DNA of 64,000 nt from Micromonospora siamensis. Lineage in GTDB: Bacteria; Actinomycetota; Actinomycetes; Mycobacteriales; Micromonosporaceae. Shown here piece by piece: positions 12,338 through 21,117 of this stretch. The notes beneath the pieces were generated by a model that saw only the letters and a list, made by a program, of their open reading frames with translations, did not search any database and had not been told where the DNA came from. The stretch is taken from contig NZ_LT607751.1 in assembly GCF_900090305.1 (NCBI RefSeq), positions 1,178,001-1,242,000 of the forward strand, in the 5' to 3' direction. Made by a program: the position numbers and the translations under genes. The number at the start of each line of letters is the position of its first letter. The first letter of the stretch is position 1.

Positions 12338-13603
12338 ATGCCCTTGAACCGCCTGCTGACCCTGGGGGTCGGCGCCTGCACGGCGGTCGCGCTCAGCGTG
12401 CCGATCGCCGCCGCGCCGGCCTCGGCCGCACCCAACCACCACCACCGGTCCGGCGGCAGCCTGGTGCTGGTCGGTGGCGCCCTCGCCGACGGCAACGCCG
12501 AGATCTACGGCGACATCGTCCGGCTGGCCGGTGGCGCCGGCAAGGCCCGGATCGGCATCTTCACCGCCGCCGCCCCGGTGCCGTCCGAGGACCCGGACGC
12601 CGGCACCCCGGACTGCAACAACAGCGTCTGCAACGGCGACTACTACGCCGACCTGTTCAAGACGTACGGCGTCGCCGACGCGCAGTGGATCCCGATCGAC
12701 CTGGACCACCCCAAGGCGGCCGAGGACCCGAAGGTCGTCGCGCAGATCTCCTCGATGACCGGGTTCTTCTTCGGCGGCGGCGACCAGTACCGCTACGTCA
12801 CGACGATGACCCGCGGCGACGCGCAGCGGGACACCCCCGCCCTGGCGGCGGTCCGGCGCAAGCTCCGTGAGGGCGCCGTGGTCGCCGGCACCAGCGCCGG
12901 CGCGCAGATCATGGCCGGCCGCGACATGATCACCGGTGGCTCGGTCGACCCCGGCCTGCGGGACGGCGCGAAGCCGGGCTACTTCGACGACTCGTCCGTG
13001 CTGGGCTACCTGCCCAAGGGTGGCTTCGGCTTCTTCACCGCCGGCCTGGTCGACACCCACTTCTCCCGGCGCGGCCGGGAGGCCCGCTCGATCCGGCTCG
13101 CCGTCGACACCCACCACCAGCGGGTCTTCGGCCTCGACGAGAACACCGCGCTGGAGGTGACCGGCGTCGGCGGGCGGGCCCAGTCGCTGCGGGTCCTCGG
13201 CCAGCGCGGGGTCAGCGTGCTCGACCTGCGCCGGGCCCGGGTCACCGACAACGCCGGGGTGTGGGGCGTCGAGGGCGTCCGGTGGAGCCGGCTCACCGCC
13301 GGTGACGCGTACCGGGCCAACGGGTGGCGGCCGGTCCTCGCCGCCGGCAAGACCCGGGTGACCGGGACCGACGGACCGTGCACGGTGCCGCCGTCGGACG
13401 ACGTGTTCTACGACTACGGGCTGGTCGGGCTCGCCGAGGGGCTGGCCGAGCAGGCCGGCTGCGACGCGGTGCACGGCACCTCGTACGAGAAGGACCCGCA
13501 GTGGGCCGCCGAGCTGACCCGCGGGAAGGGCTTCGCCGCGTACCGGGGCAGCGGCGTGCCGCTGTCGTTCACCGGCGTGGTGATCGGCATCAGCCCCGCC
13601 TGA
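12338..13603 (+). CDS. Secreted cyanophycinase-like S51 peptidase (copy 1)
   Basis: This 421-residue protein has a Sec signal peptide (residues 1-30, cleavage ASA/AP), then a class I glutamine-amidotransferase-like fold. The S51 marks are visible: FFFGGGDQYRYV (GGDQ at 147-150) and the nucleophile elbow GTSAGA with Ser186. Cyanophycinases cut beta-aspartyl-arginine dipeptides from multi-L-arginyl-poly-L-aspartate. The exported location implies attack on polymer from outside. At about 420 residues it is longer than the roughly 270-residue intracellular CphB, with a C-terminal extension. A perfect terminator follows, facing the RpiR gene. Confidence 0.85.
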   Translation: MPLNRLLTLGVGACTAVALSVPIAAAPASAAPNHHHRSGGSLVLVGGALADGNAEIYGDIVRLAGGAGKARIGIFTAAAPVPSEDPDAGTPDCNNSVCNGDYYADLFKTYGVADAQWIPIDLDHPKAAEDPKVVAQISSMTGFFFGGGDQYRYVTTMTRGDAQRDTPALAAVRRKLREGAVVAGTSAGAQIMAGRDMITGGSVDPGLRDGAKPGYFDDSSVLGYLPKGGFGFFTAGLVDTHFSRRGREARSIRLAVDTHHQRVFGLDENTALEVTGVGGRAQSLRVLGQRGVSVLDLRRARVTDNAGVWGVEGVRWSRLTAGDAYRANGWRPVLAAGKTRVTGTDGPCTVPPSDDVFYDYGLVGLAEGLAEQAGCDAVHGTSYEKDPQWAAELTRGKGFAAYRGSGVPLSFTGVVIGISPA

Positions 13604-13612
13604 CCGGACCGA

Positions 13613-13647
13613 CCGGGGCTCCCCGCCACCCCGGCGGGGAGCCCCGG
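13613..13647. terminator. Bidirectional terminator, 15 bp perfect stem
   Basis: Arms at 13613-13627 and 13633-13647 are exact complements around a 5-nt loop. The structure sits between the convergent cyanophycinase and RpiR-type regulator genes. Confidence 0.8.
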
Positions 13648-13652
13648 CGCGT

Positions 13653-14534
13653 TCAGGCGCCGCCGAAGGCCTGCTGGGCCGCCTCCATCGCCTTGAGCCG
13701 GGTGCCGGCCACCGGCCCGAGCCGGTCGATCACCGCCGCCACCACCGTCTCGACCAGCGCCAACGACGGCACGAAGCTGTCGTACGCCGACGGCGACTCG
13801 ACCCGGCTGGGCAGCACCACCTCGGCCAGTCCGGCCACCGGGGAGAGCCACCGGTCGGTGAAGAGCACCACCTTGGCGCCCCGCCCGGTCACCTCCCGCG
13901 CCAGCTCCAGCGTCGGCTCCTCGTAGCGGCGGAAGTCGAAGAGCGCGAACAGGTCGCGGCGGCCCACGTCGACCAGCATGTCGGTGCGCTCCACCGGGGT
14001 ACGCGGCAGCAGCCGGCTCCCGCCGCGTACCTGCATCAGGTGCAGCACCAGATAGTGGGCGAGCAGTCCGGAGAACCGGCCCCCGGCGGCGGTGACCCGC
14101 AGCTGCTGGTCGGCGAGGAGGCGTACCGCCGCGTCCAGCTCGCCCTGGGGCAGCTCGGCGAGGGTCCCGGCGACCGCCTCGGGCAGGGTGGCGGCGGCCC
14201 GCGGCAGCGCGCCCTCCGGCGGCACCCCGGTCCGCTCGGCGGCCCGGTACGCGGTCAGCGGCGACGCCTCCCGCTCGGCCAGCTCGTCGCGGAGCGCCCG
14301 CTGGAACTCGGGATAGCCGCCGAAGCCGAGCCGGGACAGGAAGCGCAGCACGGTCGGGGCGCTGACCTCGGCCCGCTCGGCCAGTGCGGCGACGGTGCCC
14401 AGGCCGGCCGCCGGATAGGAGGCGAGCAGGGCCCGGGCCACCCGGCGCTCGGCCGGACTGCACTCACCCAGCCGCTGCCGGATCAGCGCGGCCACGCCCA
14501 CGGCGTGCGGCTCGTGCGGTTGATCAGTCGACAC
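13653..14534 (-). CDS. MurR/RpiR family transcriptional regulator
   Basis: The 293-residue regulator has an N-terminal RpiR helix-turn-helix (about residues 10-85; AERAEVSAPTVLRFLSRLGF) and a C-terminal SIS domain (about 120-270; RVTAAGGRFSG, ARGAKVVLFTDRW). SIS domains usually bind phosphosugars, but RpiR-type proteins also control amino-acid and peptide loci. The GTG at 14534 gives a normal-length protein. It lies between two cyanophycinase-like genes and reads in the direction of the upstream copy 2. The GTAAC-N4-GTTAC palindromes at 16107-16247 are its likely operators (inference). Confidence 0.85.
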   Translation of the reverse strand: MSTDQPHEPHAVGVAALIRQRLGECSPAERRVARALLASYPAAGLGTVAALAERAEVSAPTVLRFLSRLGFGGYPEFQRALRDELAEREASPLTAYRAAERTGVPPEGALPRAAATLPEAVAGTLAELPQGELDAAVRLLADQQLRVTAAGGRFSGLLAHYLVLHLMQVRGGSRLLPRTPVERTDMLVDVGRRDLFALFDFRRYEEPTLELAREVTGRGAKVVLFTDRWLSPVAGLAEVVLPSRVESPSAYDSFVPSLALVETVVAAVIDRLGPVAGTRLKAMEAAQQAFGGA

Positions 14535-14585
14535 CGGGTGAGCGTAACCGGGCGCGCACCGGGGGCCGGCCCGCCGTGGACGCGC

Positions 14586-14624
14586 CCCGCCCCCGGCGCG
14601 CGGTATCGCGGCACCGGGGGCGGG
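14586..14624 (-). terminator. Probable hairpin terminator after cyanophycinase copy 2
   Basis: Arms at 14586-14596 and 14614-14624 pair perfectly over 11 bp around a 17-nt loop. They lie 18 bp past the stop of the secreted S51 gene and before the RpiR gene, so read-through into the regulator may be limited. Confidence 0.5.
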
Positions 14625-14641
14625 CCCAGGGGGCTGGGTCT

Positions 14642-16078
14642 TCAGGACTTCGTCACGGTGCAGGCGTAGTCGGCGGTGCCGGAGCCGGTGTACGCCTCGA
14701 CGTCGACGTAGTAGGTGGCGCTGCCCGAGGCGGTCCGGGTGAGGGCGGCCGACTCGTCGGTGCCCGCCCCGTCGTTGACCGAGCGGGTGACCGTGCTGCC
14801 CTTCGCGTCGAGCAGGTACAGGTCGGCGTCGTACGCGGTGGGCACCGCGCAGCTCACCGAGAGGGTCTGCCCGCTGTTCACGGTCAGCGCGTAGTAGTCC
14901 CGGTCGGTGCTGGCCTTCATGTCCCCGGTGAGGGTGGCCGGGAAGGTCAGGCCGGCGACGTTGTTGGCCGCGCTGCGGGAGTCGTTCGGCTCGACCTCGG
15001 TGTAGCTGCTCCCACCGGTCGGCGGCGGGGGCGGCGGGGTGGTCGAGCAGTCGGTGACCGGGGTGCCACTGTAGAGGCTCGCGCTGGGCACGCCGGCGTT
15101 GACGCTCTTCAGGTAGTAGCCGCAGGTGGGCCGGTTGGCGAAGTCGTACGTCTGGCCGCTGGTCAGCTTCCAGATCTTGAAGTTGGAGTAGGTCAGCGGT
15201 TGCCCGGAGACGGCCACCTCGGGCTGGTGGTCGCCGAGCACCACGTACGCGCTGGGCCCGCTGAGGGTGGCCAGCCCGGCCTTGTCGATGTAGAGCGATG
15301 CGCCCTCCTCGACGCCGACGCCCCACGCCTTGCCGCCGGTGGCCAGCCCGTCCTTGAGCGCCCGGGCCACGAAGGCCATGGTCCGGCCCATCCGGTCCCG
15401 GGTGACGAAGTGCGAGTCGTTGATGGTGTTGGCGTAGTTGGGCCAGCGGAACATGCCGGTGGTGAAGGTCAGCGACCGGTCGTACGGGTTGGCCAGGGCG
15501 GTGGCCGAGGTGGCGCTGGCGGTGCAGGCGTCGTACACGATGTCGCTGTTGATGTGGTGCCCGGCGCTGCCGCCGCCGACCCCGCCGCCCTTGGCCACGA
15601 CGGACTCGACGGACGCCTCCAGCGCGGTGCCCTTCCAGGCCACGTAGTTGCACTGGTTGCCGCCGGCGAAGTAGACGAACTCCGCGTTGCGGATGTCGGC
15701 GTTGACCTGGCTGTCGTTGCCGTCGCGGGCGGCGGTCAGGGTGAGCGTGGTGCAGGAGTTCACCCCGGCCAGGCCGGTGATCACGTCGCACTCCGGGGTG
15801 CCGGTGCCGGAGCCGGCGATGATCACCACGTCGATCGAGCCGGTGCCGCCCCGGATCGCGTCGATCGCCCGGGTCATGGTCGCGGTGACGATGCCGCCGG
15901 AGCCGTTCATCGTGTACGCCGGGCCGGACCAGGCGGTCCGCGAGACGTCGGCGGTGTTGCCCTGGCGGACCCGGGTGACCTGGGCCTGGGCGGCGGTGAC
16001 CCCGATCGGGGCGAGGGTGAGCAGGGCGCTCGCGGCGGCCGTGACGGCGAGCCGGCGGCGGTTGCGGGAAGGGGACAT
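14642..16078 (-). CDS. Secreted cyanophycinase-like S51 protein with C-terminal PPC domain (copy 2)
   Basis: The 478-residue protein has a signal peptide (about 1-32, TAAQAQ), an S51-like catalytic domain (about 50-345) with FAGGNQCNYV (GGNQ at 139-142) and nucleophile motif GGGSAGHH (Ser171), a Pro hinge (PPPPPP) and a bacterial pre-peptidase C-terminal beta domain (about 375-478, YTEVEPNDS to DYYALTV). The PPC domain is typical of exported proteases. It differs strongly from copy 1. GGAGGT precedes the ATG at 16078. It shares a divergent operator-rich promoter region with the amino-acid ABC importer. Confidence 0.83.
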   Translation of the reverse strand: MSPSRNRRRLAVTAAASALLTLAPIGVTAAQAQVTRVRQGNTADVSRTAWSGPAYTMNGSGGIVTATMTRAIDAIRGGTGSIDVVIIAGSGTGTPECDVITGLAGVNSCTTLTLTAARDGNDSQVNADIRNAEFVYFAGGNQCNYVAWKGTALEASVESVVAKGGGVGGGSAGHHINSDIVYDACTASATSATALANPYDRSLTFTTGMFRWPNYANTINDSHFVTRDRMGRTMAFVARALKDGLATGGKAWGVGVEEGASLYIDKAGLATLSGPSAYVVLGDHQPEVAVSGQPLTYSNFKIWKLTSGQTYDFANRPTCGYYLKSVNAGVPSASLYSGTPVTDCSTTPPPPPPTGGSSYTEVEPNDSRSAANNVAGLTFPATLTGDMKASTDRDYYALTVNSGQTLSVSCAVPTAYDADLYLLDAKGSTVTRSVNDGAGTDESAALTRTASGSATYYVDVEAYTGSGTADYACTVTKS

Positions 16079-16106
16079 GGGCACCTCCGAGGGGCCACGG
16101 ATCGAT

Positions 16107-16247
16107 GAAACAGAAGTTACATCCATTAAGTTCACTGGTCTAGAAGTAACTTCTGTTACATCGGCGTGACGACCTGGTTCCGCGGCGGGCGGCGGGCCGG
16201 TGCGTTACAGAAAACTGTAACCCCATCGAAATCGTAACGTGGGTTAC
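16107..16247. promoter_or_regulatory. Cluster of GTAAC-N4-GTTAC palindromes in a divergent promoter
   Basis: Sites read GTAACTTCTGTTTC on the minus strand (16107-16120, one mismatch in the right half), GTAACTTCTGTTAC (16146-16159) and GTAACGTGGGTTAC (16234-16247). A fourth palindrome with inverted half-sites (GTTACAG, 4-nt gap, CTGTAAC) spans 16204-16221. They lie between the starts of the secreted S51 protein and the binding protein. The nearby RpiR regulator is the natural candidate to bind them. Confidence 0.75.
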
Positions 16248-16289
16248 AGTCCGGGGGCTGGATCGTTCTGGCCCCCGGAAGGACACCCC

Positions 16290-17234
16290 ATGCGCATCCG
16301 ACACTTCGCCCTGCTCGGCGCGGCCACCGCGCTGCTCGCCACCACCGCCGCCTGCGGCGACTCCTCCTCCACCGCCGGCTCCGGCGACGAGATCAAGCCG
16401 GTCTCGGTCACCGTCGAGGGGGTCGGCGAGGTCACCACCGACACCGCCCTCGCCGGCAAGGTGCCCGCCGACGTCCGCGGCCGGGGCACCCTCACCGTCG
16501 CCACCAACGCGCCCTACCAGCCGTTCATCGACTTCAAGGTCGAGGGCAAGAACGACGCCTTCAAGGGCCTCGACTACGACCTGTTCCAGGCCGCCTCCGC
16601 CCGGCTCGGCCTCAAGGCCACCTTCACCCAGCAGCCCTTCGACGGCCTGGTCCCCGGCCTCCAGGCCGCCAAGTACGACGCCATCGCCGGCGGCATCACC
16701 GACAAGAAGGAACGCCAGCAGGTCGCCACCTTCGTCGACTACTCCGCCTCCGGCACCGGCTTCCTCGTCAAGACCGGCAACCCGCTCGCCGTCAAGACCG
16801 TCGCCGACCTCTGCGGGCGCAAGGTCGCCGTGCAGAAGGCCAGCAACCAGGCGAAGAACCTCGCCACGTACGCCAAGGACAGCTGCGCCGGCAAGGCCAT
16901 CGACATCAAGGAGTACCCGGAGAACCCGCAGGCGGTGCAGGCGCTGATCGCCGGCAACGTCGACGTGGTCGCCGCCACCAAGGTCAACCTGGTCGACACC
17001 GCCGCCTCGCTGACCGGCAGGGCCGAGCTGGTCGAGGACGCCTCCGCCCCCAACGGCTGGCTGGCCAGCCCCAACGGCTTCGGCTTCCTCAAGGCCAACA
17101 AGGAGCTCGCCGAGGCGTACCGGGCCGCCGTGCAGTCCCTGATCGACGACGGCACGTACACCAAGATCCTGGCCCAGTGGAAGCAGGAGCCGATCGCGAT
17201 CAAGCAGGCCACCATCGACCAGGCCATCGACTGA
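16290..17234 (+). CDS. Polar amino acid/dipeptide ABC transporter substrate-binding lipoprotein
   Basis: This 314-residue protein starts after GGAAGGA with a lipobox (LLATTAACG, Cys22) and belongs to the SBP_bac_3 (HisJ/GlnH-like) family: LTVATNAPYQPFIDF, FKGLDYDLFQAASARLGL, FDGLVPGLQAAKYDAI, GITDKKERQQVATFVDYSA. It binds the solute outside the membrane for the permease and ATPase that follow. The ligand is not readable from sequence. Its place opposite a secreted cyanophycinase suggests a basic amino acid or a beta-Asp-Arg-type dipeptide. A 16 bp stem-loop separates it from the permease. Confidence 0.88.
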   Translation: MRIRHFALLGAATALLATTAACGDSSSTAGSGDEIKPVSVTVEGVGEVTTDTALAGKVPADVRGRGTLTVATNAPYQPFIDFKVEGKNDAFKGLDYDLFQAASARLGLKATFTQQPFDGLVPGLQAAKYDAIAGGITDKKERQQVATFVDYSASGTGFLVKTGNPLAVKTVADLCGRKVAVQKASNQAKNLATYAKDSCAGKAIDIKEYPENPQAVQALIAGNVDVVAATKVNLVDTAASLTGRAELVEDASAPNGWLASPNGFGFLKANKELAEAYRAAVQSLIDDGTYTKILAQWKQEPIAIKQATIDQAID

Positions 17235-17260
17235 CCCGAGCGGACCACCACCCCTGATCA

Positions 17261-17321
17261 GCGGTCGCCGGGCGCCCTCCGCATCCGTGAGGGCGGGCCC
17301 GGAGAGGCGCCCGGCGACCGC
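17261..17321 (+). terminator. Large stem-loop between binding-protein and permease genes
   Basis: Arms at 17261-17276 and 17306-17321 are perfectly complementary over 16 bp. The intervening 29 nt can form a second small hairpin (GCCCTC...GAGGGC). Such structures after binding-protein genes usually act as partial terminators or 3' protective hairpins, so more binding protein than permease is made. Confidence 0.75.
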
Positions 17322-17387
17322 CGCACCGTTTCCGTTCGCGACCGCGGGCTCCGCAACGCCGCGGACCCCGCCGCTGGAGGCACCGCA

Positions 17388-18242
17388 ATGACGAGCGACA
17401 CCGACACCGTACGGGTGGTCCCCGTCCGGCACTACGGGCGCTGGGCGACCGCGCTGCTCGTGGTCGGACTGGCCGCCCTCTTCCTCCGGGCGCTGTTCGA
17501 CAGCCCCAACCTGGAACCCGGCACCGTCCGGGAGTACCTGTTCAAGGACTACGTCCTCGACGGCGTGGTCACCACGCTCTGGCTCACCCTGCTCGCCATG
17601 GTGCTCGGCACCGTCGGCGGCGTGCTGCTCGCCGTGATGCGGCTGTCGGCCAACCCCGTGCTGCGCGGCGTCTCCTGGGCGTTCATCTGGGTCTTCCGGG
17701 GCACCCCGCTGCTGGTCCAGATCATCTTCTTCGGCTTCCTCGGCGCGCTCTTCCCCAGGCTCACCCTGACCGTGCCGTTCACCGGGACCGTCCTGTTCGA
17801 CAAGCCGACCAGCGTCGTGGTCACCGGCACCGTCGCCGCCGTGCTGGCCCTGTCCCTCAACGAGATGGCGTACGCCGCCGAGGTGATCCGCGGCGGCATC
17901 CTCGCCGTCGACGGCGGACAGACCGAGGCCGCCGCCGCCCTCGGCATGAGCCCCGCGCTCACCCTGCGCCGGGTGGTGCTGCCCCAGGCCATGCGGGTGA
18001 TCATCCCGCCGATGGGCAACGAGACCATCACCATGCTCAAGTCCACGGCGCTGGTCTCGATCATCGCCGGCCGGGACCTGATGACCGCCGTGCAGACCGT
18101 CTACCAGAACAACTACAAGGTGATCCCGCTGCTGGTCGTCGCCGCGATCTGGTACCTGGCCCTGGTGAGCCTGCTCTCCGCCGGCCAGTGGCTGATCGAG
18201 CGGCGGTTCGGCCGCGGCTTCGCCCGGGGAGGCGTCCGATGA
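17388..18242 (+). CDS. Polar amino acid ABC transporter permease
   Basis: The 284-residue protein is a HisM/GlnP-type permease with about five to six transmembrane segments and the EAA loop [20 protein letters not shown], which docks on the ATPase. It has an extra N-terminal transmembrane helix (about residues 17-38) and a short periplasmic segment before the standard core. A single permease gene implies a homodimer. Its stop overlaps the start of the ATPase gene by 4 bp (ATGA). Confidence 0.9.
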
Positions 18243-19033
18243 CCGTCACCGAGCAGACCCCCGTGACCGCCACCCGGCCGATGGTCCGGGCCGAGGGCGT
18301 GGTCAAGCGGTACGGCCCGATCGAGGTGCTCAAGGGCATCGACCTCGACGTCGCCCCCGGCGAGGTGAGCTGCCTGCTCGGCCCCTCCGGGTCCGGCAAG
18401 TCGACGTTCCTGCGCTGCATCAACCACCTGGAGCGGATCGACGGCGGCCAGCTCTCCGTCGACGGGGAACTGGTCGGCTACCGCCGCCACGGCGGGAAGC
18501 TCCACGAACTCAAGGCCCGCGAGGTGGCCCGCCGCCGCCGCGACATCGGCATGGTCTTCCAGCGGTTCAACCTCTTCCCGCACCTCACCGCGCTCGGCAA
18601 CGTCGTCGAGGCCCCGGTACGGGTGCTCGGCACGCCCCGCGACAAGGCCCGGGACGAGGCGATGCGGCTGCTGGACCGGGTCGGGCTGGCCGACAAGGCC
18701 GGCAACTATCCGGGGCAGCTCTCCGGCGGGCAGCAGCAGCGGGTGGCGATCGCCCGGGCGCTGGCCATGCACCCCAAGCTGATGCTCTTCGACGAGCCCA
18801 CCTCCGCGCTCGACCCGGAGCTGGTCGGTGAGGTGCTGGACGTGATGAAGGGGCTCGCCGCCGAAGGCATGACGATGATCGTGGTGACCCACGAGATGGG
18901 CTTCGCCCGCGAGGTCGCCGACTCCGTCGCCTTCCTCGACGGCGGGGTGGTGGTCGAGGCCGGCCCGCCGGCCGAGGTGCTGGGCAACCCGCGGCACGAC
19001 CGCACCCGCGCGTTCCTGGACAAGGTGCTCTGA
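18239..19033 (+). CDS. Polar amino acid ABC transporter ATP-binding protein
   Basis: The 264-residue ATPase has Walker [11 protein letters not shown]-loop [11 protein letters not shown], signature LSGGQQQR, Walker [15 protein letters not shown] and H-loop VTHEMGFA. These match the GlnQ/HisP (PAAT) family. It powers import through the permease encoded just upstream, with which it overlaps by 4 bp. The stop shares one base with the start of the M20 peptidase gene, so transporter and peptidase form one translational unit. Confidence 0.93.
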
Positions 19034-20205
19034 TGGGCCCGCTGCTGGCGGCGGCCGGGGACCGGCTGGCTGCGTACCACGACCGGCTGGCCCGACTGGT
19101 CGCCGTGGACTCCGGCTCCGGCCACGTCGAGGGGCTGCGCGCCGCCGCCGACCTGGTGCAGACCTGGTGCCTGGCCGCCGGCATGGCGGTCGAACGGGAG
19201 GCGGTCGCCGACCCCGACGGCCGGCCGCTCGGTGACGTGCTGGTCGCCCGGCACCGGGGTCGCGGCACCCGCCGGATCCTGCTCGCCGGTCACCTGGACA
19301 CGGTCTTCCCACCCGGCACGGCCGCCGCCCGGCCGTTCCGGGTGCAGGACGGCCGGGCGTACGGGCCGGGGGTCAGCGACGACAAGGGCGGCCTGCTGGC
19401 CGGGCTCGCCGCCGTCGAGGTGCTCACCGCGCTGGGCCTCGACGGGTACGCCGAACTGGTGCTGGTCTGCACCCCGGACGAGGAGATCGGGTCGACCGGC
19501 AGCCGCCCGCTGCTGCGTACCCTCGGGGCCGAGGCCGACGTGGCGCTCTGCCTGGAATGCGCCCGCGACAACGGTGACCTGGTCTCCGCCCGCAAGGGCG
19601 TCGCGGACCTGGAGGTGACCCTGCGGGGCCGGGCCGCGCACGCCGGCATCGAACCGGAGCGGGGCGCCAACGCGCTGCTCGCCGCGGCCCGGCTGACCGT
19701 CGCGCTGGACGCCCTCAACGGGCGCTGGCCCGGCGTCACCGTCAACGTCGGCCTGCTGGAGGCCGGTGGCCGGCCCAACGTGGTCGCCGACCGGGCCCGG
19801 CTCCTGATCGACCTGCGCGCCTGGCGCACCGGCGAGTACGAGGCGGCGCTGGCCGAGATCCGCCGGCTGGTCGCCGCCCCGATGGTCTCCGGGGTCCGGG
19901 GCGAGCTGGCCGTGCACGCGCCCACCCCGCCCTGGGAGCCCGGCGCCCGCGGTCGGCGGTTGACCGAGCTGGCCGGCAAGGTAGGCGCCGGCATCGGCCT
20001 GCCGGTGTCGCACACCGCGACCGGTGGCTGTGCCGACGCCAACCTGCTCGCCGAGGCGGGCGCTGCCGTGCTCGACGGGCTCGGCCCGGTCGGCGGGGAC
20101 GACCACAGCCCCGCCGAGTGGCTGGACCTGGACTCGGTGGTGCCGCGCGTCGCCCTGCTCGCCGGCCTGGTCGACGAGGTGTGCCGGCCGGGTCAGGAGC
20201 TGTAA
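19033..20205 (+). CDS. M20 family metallopeptidase (carboxypeptidase G2-like)
   Basis: This 390-residue protein has the di-zinc M20 site: GHLDTVFP (His87, Asp89), GVSDDKGG (Asp116), PDEEIGS (Glu150/151), Glu175 in CLECARD and His in GDDHSPAEW. The dimerisation insert lies about 185-300. There is no signal peptide, so it acts in the cytoplasm. Relatives cleave C-terminal Glu or other residues from peptides and conjugates. Coupling to the importer by a one-base overlap suggests it hydrolyses the imported compound, possibly a beta-aspartyl dipeptide (inference). Confidence 0.88.
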   Translation: MGPLLAAAGDRLAAYHDRLARLVAVDSGSGHVEGLRAAADLVQTWCLAAGMAVEREAVADPDGRPLGDVLVARHRGRGTRRILLAGHLDTVFPPGTAAARPFRVQDGRAYGPGVSDDKGGLLAGLAAVEVLTALGLDGYAELVLVCTPDEEIGSTGSRPLLRTLGAEADVALCLECARDNGDLVSARKGVADLEVTLRGRAAHAGIEPERGANALLAAARLTVALDALNGRWPGVTVNVGLLEAGGRPNVVADRARLLIDLRAWRTGEYEAALAEIRRLVAAPMVSGVRGELAVHAPTPPWEPGARGRRLTELAGKVGAGIGLPVSHTATGGCADANLLAEAGAAVLDGLGPVGGDDHSPAEWLDLDSVVPRVALLAGLVDEVCRPGQEL

Positions 20206-20876
20206 CCGCGGCCGGCGATCCAGTTGGCCAGCTCGGTCACGTCCATCCAGTACTCCGGCTCGTTCGGGCTGGCCGGGTCGGCGATCAGCACCGTGTCGCC
20301 GTCGTCCTTGTACTCCACCACGGTCAGGTAGTGGCCCGGGTAGCTGTGCTCGACGCCGTCGACGTCGAGTGCGCCGCCCAGGATGTTGGCGACCACCGGC
20401 CGGCCCTGGTCGACCGCCGACCGCACGTCGGCCCGCAGCCGCTCGACCTGCTCGCGGGTCGCCACGTCGTCCCGGATCTCGGTGGTCCGGTACTTGCCGC
20501 CGGTGTACTCGTTGAGCACCCGGGTGATGTCCAGCGCCGAGTCGGTGCCGTTCTCGGTGGTGCCGAGCTTGCGGGCCAGCTCGTCCTGGCTGACCTCCCT
20601 GCCCTCGGCGGACAGGGCGATCCGGGTCGAGGCGGGGCCGCAATAGAAGAAGTTCGGCTGTGCCTGGTACTCGTAGCCGGCGCGGCGCTCGCCCTTGCCG
20701 CTTTTGGCGTCCTTGCTGCTCTTGGCGTCCTTGCTGCTCTTGGCGTCCTTGGTCGCGGTGACCGGCTTGGCCGTGGCGGGCGCGGCCTGCGCGGCCACCG
20801 CCGGTCCGGCGAGCACGCCGCCGGACACCAGCAGGCCGGCGACGGAGAGCATGCCGTTACGGAAGATCGGGTTCAT
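20193..20876 (-). CDS. Secreted C39-like cysteine peptidase
   Basis: The 227-residue protein starts at the ATG at 20876 behind a GGAG site and has a signal peptide (about 1-32). It then has a low-complexity KDAKSS linker repeat (about 44-62) and a papain-like C39_2 domain with the catalytic Cys79 in NFFYCGPAST, His in SYPGHYLTVVEY and Asp in LIADPASPNEP. Its role outside the cell (peptide processing or wall-linked proteolysis) is unknown; no C39-ABC exporter adjoins it. Its 3' end overlaps the convergent M20 gene by 13 bp. Confidence 0.78.
   Translation of the reverse strand: MNPIFRNGMLSVAGLLVSGGVLAGPAVAAQAAPATAKPVTATKDAKSSKDAKSSKDAKSGKGERRAGYEYQAQPNFFYCGPASTRIALSAEGREVSQDELARKLGTTENGTDSALDITRVLNEYTGGKYRTTEIRDDVATREQVERLRADVRSAVDQGRPVVANILGGALDVDGVEHSYPGHYLTVVEYKDDGDTVLIADPASPNEPEYWMDVTELANWIAGRGYSS
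20703..20755 (-). repeat. 18 bp in-frame repeat coding KDAKSS
   Basis: An 18 bp unit (about CTTGGCGTCCTTGCTGCT on the plus strand) occurs nearly three times in tandem inside the C39-like gene. It codes KDAKSS units of the linker between signal peptide and catalytic domain. In-frame units can expand or shrink without a frameshift. Confidence 0.8.
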
Positions 20877-21030
20877 TCGCGAAGCTCCATTCGGGGGTTT
20901 GCCGCCCGGCCGGGTTCGTGGGCGCGGGCACAAGCACCGGGAAGGGCGCTCGACGTGCAGGGTCGTGACGAGCCGGGTCCGGCCGCCATTGGTGAGGCAC
21001 AACGGCCAGCACCGGAGGATGATTCCGCCG

Positions 21031-21117
21031 GTGCCCGGTGCCCGGTGCCCGGTGCCCGGTGCCCGGTGCCCGGTGCCCGGTGCCCGGTGCCCGGTGCCCG
21101 GTGCCCGGTGCCCGGTG
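21031..21117. repeat. Tandem array of 12 perfect 7-mers (GTGCCCG)
   Basis: Twelve exact copies of GTGCCCG run from 21031 to 21114, followed by a partial GTG. The array is intergenic, about 150 bp upstream of the C39-like start. Short perfect arrays change length by slippage, so copy number should vary between strains. Confidence 0.95.

Follow-up and report, generated by a model that had tools for sequence, protein, structure and literature searches.

A conserved actinomycete gene cassette of two S51 cyanophycinase-like proteins, an importer and an M20 hydrolase, with a candidate role in cyanophycin scavenging

Gene clusters for the scavenging of cyanophycin, a polymer that stores nitrogen, have been described. 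In the cyanophycin utilization locus of Ben Hania et al. (cited in PMC10206079), cyanophycinase genes are grouped with those of a transporter and a dipeptide hydrolase, and the same source reports loci that join a cyanophycinase and a transporter to iadA. A 64,000-nucleotide stretch of the Micromonospora siamensis genome (contig NZ_LT607751.1; hereafter the window, in whose coordinates positions are given) holds a cluster that resembles these loci in its make-up. Unlike them, it contains no iadA, and has instead an M20 metallohydrolase, a polar-amino-acid (PAAT)-type ATP-binding cassette (ABC) importer, an RpiR regulator and a second, divergent S51 protein. We refer to the two S51 proteins as A and B. 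An earlier note on this DNA had presented an exported, transporter-coupled pathway as new, which is overstated, since scavenging loci with iadA were known already; the new elements are the M20 hydrolase, the putative adaptation of the importer and the B-type enzyme. We found no description of an RpiR–S51–PAAT–M20 locus in the open-licence PMC literature.

We consider it somewhat probable that the locus serves the scavenging of cyanophycin. Both S51 proteins would be exported and would cut cyanophycin, or a close β-aspartyl polymer, into β-Asp-Arg outside the cell. The ABC importer would then take up intact β-Asp-Arg, an N-acylated arginine, and a cytoplasmic M20 enzyme, encoded in the same operon as the importer, would hydrolyze it to Asp and Arg. 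Control of at least the B gene and the importer–M20 operon would fall to RpiR, acting through GTAA-N6-TTAC dyads. This reading draws on gene identities, folds, catalytic and pocket residues, gene linkage, an operator and the lack of a known dipeptidase over its cut-off, all computed here.

A conserved seven-gene cassette with its own operator

Gene A encodes a putative CphE-like S51 cyanophycinase of 421 residues, predicted to be secreted, at 12338–13603 on the forward strand, recognized from PF03575, a TIGR02069 match under the cut-off and an AlphaFold model. It is followed on the reverse strand by a likely local regulator of the RpiR/MurR family with HTH_6 and SIS domains (13653–14534; GTG start read from the sequence) and by B (14642–16078), a divergent cyanophycinase-like S51 protein of 478 residues, likewise predicted to be secreted and recognized from its AlphaFold model, with a PPC-like domain at its C-terminus. 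The start of B was shifted from 16135 to 16078 on account of a GGAGG site. The remaining genes run on the forward strand and encode a solute-binding lipoprotein (SBP) of the SBP_bac_3 family (16290–17234; start refined from the sequence), an ABC permease of the polar-amino-acid type (17388–18242), an ABC ATPase (18239–19033) and the M20 metallohydrolase (19033–20205), a proposed β-Asp-Arg hydrolase. The permease and ATPase genes overlap at an ATGA and the ATPase and M20 genes at a TGATG, which places M20 in the importer operon. By eye, A and B have export signals, the SBP has a lipobox and M20 has no signal.

RpiR, A, B, the importer and M20 form a real, conserved cassette. Searches with A, B and M20 (limits 1e-20, 1e-20 and 1e-60, respectively) each matched 13 of 121 sampled genomes of the family, and the 13 are identical, which excludes a chance neighborhood. 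All seven genes, RpiR included, are clustered in 13 of 13 of these loci, in several gene orders. With B as the query, a collection of named genomes yielded 80 contigs, at least 66 of which carry all seven genes over a span of 7.1–11.1 kb; the count is a lower bound because some contigs end early and the overlap filter hid at least one RpiR match elsewhere. These contigs belong mostly to Streptomyces or Micromonospora, with others from Catellatospora, Dactylosporangium, Kitasatospora and further genera, and include genomes with two loci as well as seven of the 13 family genomes. Because the 80 loci overlap other samples, residue and operator counts are given below for distinct sequences. The linkage of S51, RpiR, importer and M20 genes that the earlier note had pointed out thus extends well past the window, and it is conserved in Micromonosporaceae and Streptomycetaceae.

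As the 80 contigs had been selected by B, we also searched 394 genomes of the class starting from M20. Nine matched, two of which (G000 and G045) are also in the family sample. The importer adjoins M20 in all nine, A in six and B in four, so that the importer–M20 pair emerges as the core, A as its usual partner and B as a more restricted one. A was not found within the fetched 20 kb in two of the nine (G427 and G481), and at G458 the contig ends. Both the family set and the class set sample larger groups, and with 4 to 15 candidates scored in each genome some loci may have been missed.

The exact dyad GTAAC-N4-GTTAC, a predicted operator, occurs twice in the window (mean of 0.00 in 100 shuffles), on the B side at 16146–16159 and on the importer side at 16234–16247; a related dyad, GTTAC-N8-GTAAC, lies between them at 16204–16221. 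Four whole Micromonospora genomes each contain the exact dyad in two places, both at the locus in all four, and a reversed-pattern control gave 0. Allowing up to one mismatch, GTAA-N6-TTAC is found upstream (in 300 bases and 60 more inside the gene) of 76 of 79 distinct SBP genes, 78 of 86 B genes and 18 of 73 RpiR genes, and upstream of none of the 74 M20 and none of the 77 permease genes. Shuffles of the undeduplicated upstream sets, which keep base composition only, gave means of 0.95 to 3.6 loci. In 52 of 87 loci the B and SBP genes are divergent and share a single intergenic gap, so their two dyad counts are not independent. We infer that RpiR binds these dyads; the sense of its control is equally putative.

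Variants of the cassette occur elsewhere. At E 1e-40, M20 matches in plasmids were limited to Kitasatospora fiedleri, which has the locus, and a 4.1-Mb Proteus record listed as a plasmid. Plasmid 2 of K. fiedleri carries the importer, with permease and ATPase fused in one protein, M20, RpiR and two annotated cyanophycinases, both nearer A, with no B match in the stretch. Two strains of Kitasatospora phosalacinea have two B genes on one contig, no more than ~14 kb apart. The genome of the window itself encodes a second secreted A-type S51 protein (C1:3895708-3896880; 49% identical to A); no other cassette gene lies within 3.5 kb of it, and none was recognized among open reading frame starts in 20 kb, where no search was run. 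No cassette gene scored above 60 bits in the neighborhood of B relatives on two Chloroflexi-group contigs, one Bacteroidetes contig and one Balneolaceae contig, or in the further locus L106, where open reading frame starts and lists were viewed with no family search. Large clusters of open reading frames with no cassette match (35 and 23 loci) resembled antisense frames by eye and were set aside.

Two divergent S51 proteins

A matches PF03575 with 33.6 bits (cut-off 23.9). B has no Pfam S51 match, and its C-terminal PPC domain falls just below the cut-off (24.8 versus 25.9). The AlphaFold model of A (mean pLDDT 80, 11 sequences) has 7uqv, 3en0 and 7uqw as its top matches, with TM scores by target of 0.81–0.88. 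For the model of B (mean pLDDT 85, 13 sequences) the top matches are 3en0, 7uqw and 7uqv (0.72–0.79), and its best nine PDB matches are all cyanophycinase chains. On these models, A and B are cyanophycinase-like, and they are scarcely alike in mutual comparison.

Residues of the active site are conserved in both. In CphE of Pseudomonas alcaligenes, Ser171, His224, Glu251, Gln136, Asp222, Thr223, Arg228, Arg230 and Arg233 are catalytic or line the pocket (PMC3235067). Read against these, the window copy of A keeps the triad, with Ser186 in the nucleophile elbow, His241 and Glu268, and the pocket residues Gln150, Asp239, Thr240, Arg245, Arg247 and Arg250. It thus has the full CphE set, including Thr where CphB has Gln173. 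Among 73 distinct sequences of A, no variation occurs at Gln150, Ser186, Asp239, Thr240, His241, Arg247 and Arg250. In its window copy, B (478-residue numbering) has Gln142, Ser171 in the nucleophile elbow, Asp221, Ser222, His223, Arg227, Arg229 and Arg232, that is, the CphE set save for Ser in place of Thr223 (CphB Gln173). Its catalytic acid, assigned by eye, is Glu257 or Glu258 and is less constant among relatives. In B, Gln, Ser, His and all three Arg are the same in each of 83 distinct sequences; Asp is found in 82, and Ser replaces Gln173 in 82. The earlier note had described two different secreted S51 cyanophycinase-like proteins with elbows at Ser186 and Ser171, and both the models, with cyanophycinase structures as first matches, and the residues agree, secretion being a judgment by eye. 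To judge from these residues, A and B may hydrolyze cyanophycin.

A and B might instead detoxify peptide-nucleotide antibiotics, as some S51 peptidases are reported to confer resistance to microcin C (PMC9239234). We find this barely credible for the present locus, where both proteins have export signals by eye and are accompanied by an importer and M20. Peptidases of the microcin C type act on the compound inside the cell.

The surroundings of distant relatives bear on the substrate. Pseudoalteromonas xiamenensis has adjoining A-type and B-type genes, and iadA, yfcC and a TonB receptor gene lie within ~6 kb; the second of the adjoining genes is nearer B (112 bits) than A (32 bits) and likewise encodes a PPC-like part. 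Pseudoalteromonas strain THAF3 has an A-type gene together with arginase, iadA and yfcC, which encodes a basic-amino-acid antiporter, and a third Pseudoalteromonas region has arginase and no listed iadA. On a Priestia megaterium plasmid, the one record inspected of nine from Priestia, a B-type gene is followed by aspA. Among the 80 loci found through B, 17, all from Streptomyces and two of them in one genome, have a convergent aspartase-like gene ~100 bp past the B gene; two of these 17 matches are partial. Two such genes were scanned. Against the aspartate ammonia-lyase subfamily, whose cut-off is 510, they score 653 and 667 bits, and against the aspA equivalog 593 and 595 bits, below its cut-off of 681. 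Genes of Asp and Arg catabolism beside relatives of A and B therefore point to a polymer of Asp and Arg. The annotation shows no informative neighbors for a relative of A in Cytobacillus. A parallel candidate lies on a haloarchaeal Natronosalvus plasmid, where an ABC importer is grouped with two cyanophycinases, an agmatinase and yet another kind of hydrolase, an M28 metallopeptidase.

The M20 hydrolase, the importer and known dipeptidases

The closest solved relatives of M20 are carboxypeptidase G2 (CPG2) chains (1cg2, E 4.2e-49). Among 74 distinct M20 sequences, the metal ligands and the catalytic Glu, the general base, are invariant save for one gap at His358, and so are His203, Asn249 and Arg262 of the lid, as aligned to CPG2. 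This likeness would suit an ordinary CPG2-type enzyme that releases C-terminal glutamate, with the locus serving general peptide scavenging. However, CPG2 Arg324, which superposes on PepD Arg369, itself aligned with PepV Arg350 (PMC6271292), is replaced in 74 of 74 (Cys in 51, Thr in 22, Ala in one), a loop around E175-C-A-R that follows the Glu metal ligand is conserved in a form different from that of CPG2, and M20 is tightly linked to two S51 enzymes. We regard the CPG2-type alternative as very unlikely, and M20 as probably the dipeptide hydrolase of the locus, as its residues and setting suggest.

The SBP is altered in a way that agrees with such a substrate. In 79 distinct sequences the equivalent of LAO Arg77, which we take to be the carboxylate ligand, is kept in all 79, and the equivalent of Asp161, presumably the α-ammonium ligand, is Thr in 78. 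These residues would suit a ligand whose carboxylate is free and whose α-amine is blocked, and the patterns of M20 and the SBP both fit an N-acylated amino acid.

No known cyanophycin dipeptidase passed its cut-off in the 13 locus-bearing family genomes, in line with the absence of IadA, IaaA and CphZ from the locus that the earlier note had stated. The IadA model gave weak partial matches in 12 of the 13 and none over its cut-off, the IaaA family (PF01112) had no match anywhere in the 13, and neither PF04952 nor PF24827, for CphZ-type AstE/AspA proteins, matched in any of the 13. In all 18 genomes searched, PF24827 had one match over the cut-off (G481, 25.5 bits) and one below it (G401). According to PMC10206079, M14 or AstE/AspA-family is the annotation given to the more recently described hydrolases of the cyanophycin dipeptide, and all 35 CphA1-bearing Actinomycetota examined there had IadA and/or IaaA. 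In contrast, G044 and G081, two locus-bearing genomes with CphA over its cut-off, have neither IadA nor IaaA over the cut-off.

Even if cyanophycin is the polymer, an unrecognized enzyme could split the dipeptide, M20 having a side task. Our scan took in three known families, other hydrolases encoded in the genome may act, and the weak partial IadA matches of 12 of the 13 genomes suggest the presence of further amidohydrolases. Yet the M20 gene overlaps the ATPase gene and adjoins the importer in nine of nine class genomes found from M20, and in four genomes the exact dyad is confined to the locus, with no distant regulon member seen. We judge an unrecognized dipeptidase unlikely.

Weighing the substrate and comparison with known systems

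Several observations weigh against cyanophycin scavenging. Both S51 proteins score under the TIGR02069 cyanophycinase cut-off of 126.6 (A, 111 bits; B, 44.9 bits), and equivalog membership is not claimed for them. Of 73 distinct A sequences, only 18 have Arg at the equivalent of CphB Arg178, where 43 have Tyr, and the triad Glu, present in 65, gives way to Pro, Gln or Ala in the other eight. Beside Gln142, the window copy of B has Asn at residue 141, where 67 of 83 distinct relatives have Asp. GTAA-N6-TTAC with up to one mismatch is rare upstream of A (eight of 73 distinct upstream stretches), and the upstream stretch of A in the window contains neither GTAAC nor GTTAC, so that control of A by the dyad is unsupported in most loci, the window included. 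In G427 and G481, the fetched 20 kb contain the importer, M20 and RpiR genes but lack both A and B. These two may be dipeptide users that depend on the enzymes of others.

The M20 metal ligand at position 175 is Glu, as in acylases and carboxypeptidases, where M20-family dipeptidases have Asp (PMC6271292, a review), and this weighs against a classical dipeptidase. An acylase-type site is nonetheless what would be expected here, because β-Asp-Arg is an N-acyl-arginine whose aspartyl amine lies away from the bond to be cut. The identity of the polymer, the imported ligand and the activities of A, B and M20 are all predictions from sequence and models. The roles ascribed to CPG2 Arg324, in part, and to the two LAO residues are our own assumption.

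CphA exceeds its cut-off in only two of the 13 locus-bearing genomes (G044 and G081). A third genome, G090, has a pair of lower-scoring matches (462 and 300 bits) that lie in a single frame, and the other ten genomes have weaker matches only. In most locus-bearing genomes the polymer would thus have to come from other organisms, and the weaker matches in those ten fit scavenging. With 11 of 13 locus genomes lacking CphA over the cut-off, the Arg178 equivalent variable in A, and a poly(aspartic acid) hydrolase of known structure among the relatives of M20 (7ljh, E 5.6e-7), the substrate might be another extracellular β-aspartyl or N-acyl-amino-acid polymer or peptide, such as poly-aspartate (PahZ-type) or a lysine-rich relative. 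The CphE-type residues are otherwise kept, though, and relatives lie near iadA, arginase and YfcC; we consider another polymer rather unlikely and prefer cyanophycin.

Beyond M20, a C39-like gene (20193–21002, reverse strand; PF13529) encodes a protein with a short KDAKSS repeat, with an 18-bp DNA repeat at 20693–20751. Among the 13 family loci it is present at the window locus only, and it exceeds 60 bits in six of the 80 loci found through B; this rarity rules it out as a cassette member. A perfect tandem array of the 7-bp unit CCGGTGC, in 12.9 copies, occupies 21028–21117.

More tentatively, and with nearly even weight for and against, we propose that Actinobacteria possess a dipeptide hydrolase class beyond IadA, IaaA and CphZ, in the form of an acylase-type M20 enzyme to which β-Asp-Arg is an N-acyl-arginine, that the SBP of the importer supplying it has lost its α-ammonium ligand for this same reason, and that A and B, with different pockets, divide the work on the polymer; A often lacks the Arg178 equivalent, and B always has all three arginines. 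The isoaspartyl dipeptidases of some cyanophycin-using clades are described as undiscovered, with Firmicutes and Bacteroidota, and not actinobacteria, named there (PMC10206079). If the M20 assignment is true, it adds a further dipeptidase class, and a gap of this kind could then be approached by assaying a single purified protein. A further suggestion from the locus is that actinomycetes live in part on cyanophycin that other organisms produce, which would link species through nitrogen. The putatively exported enzymes are also of practical interest for making β-Asp-Arg.

Several components have described counterparts. A shares with CphE (CphEal, PMC3235067) an export signal by eye, a length of ~420 residues, the GXSXG motif and the Gln, Asp, Thr, His, three Arg and Glu in the same order at nearly the same spacing; unlike CphE, it stays under the TIGR02069 cut-off and in most distinct relatives lacks the Arg178 equivalent, the comparison being one of reported residues rather than a direct alignment. 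CphB and pseudo-CphB (3en0, 7uqw, 7uqv) resemble A and B in fold and pocket residues, whereas their solved chains have 275–291 residues and Gln173, and A and B are longer and predicted to be exported, B with an added PPC-like domain. The SBP shares its SBP_bac_3 family and the Arg77 equivalent with LAO, HisJ and GlnBP and differs by Thr at the Asp161 equivalent. M20 has the metal ligands, catalytic Glu and lid His, Asn and Arg of CPG2, and departs from it at Arg324 and in the loop after the Glu ligand. With CphZ, an M14-like protein of the AstE/AspA family (PMC10206079), M20 would share the proposed reaction and the linkage to cyanophycin genes, within an unrelated protein family.

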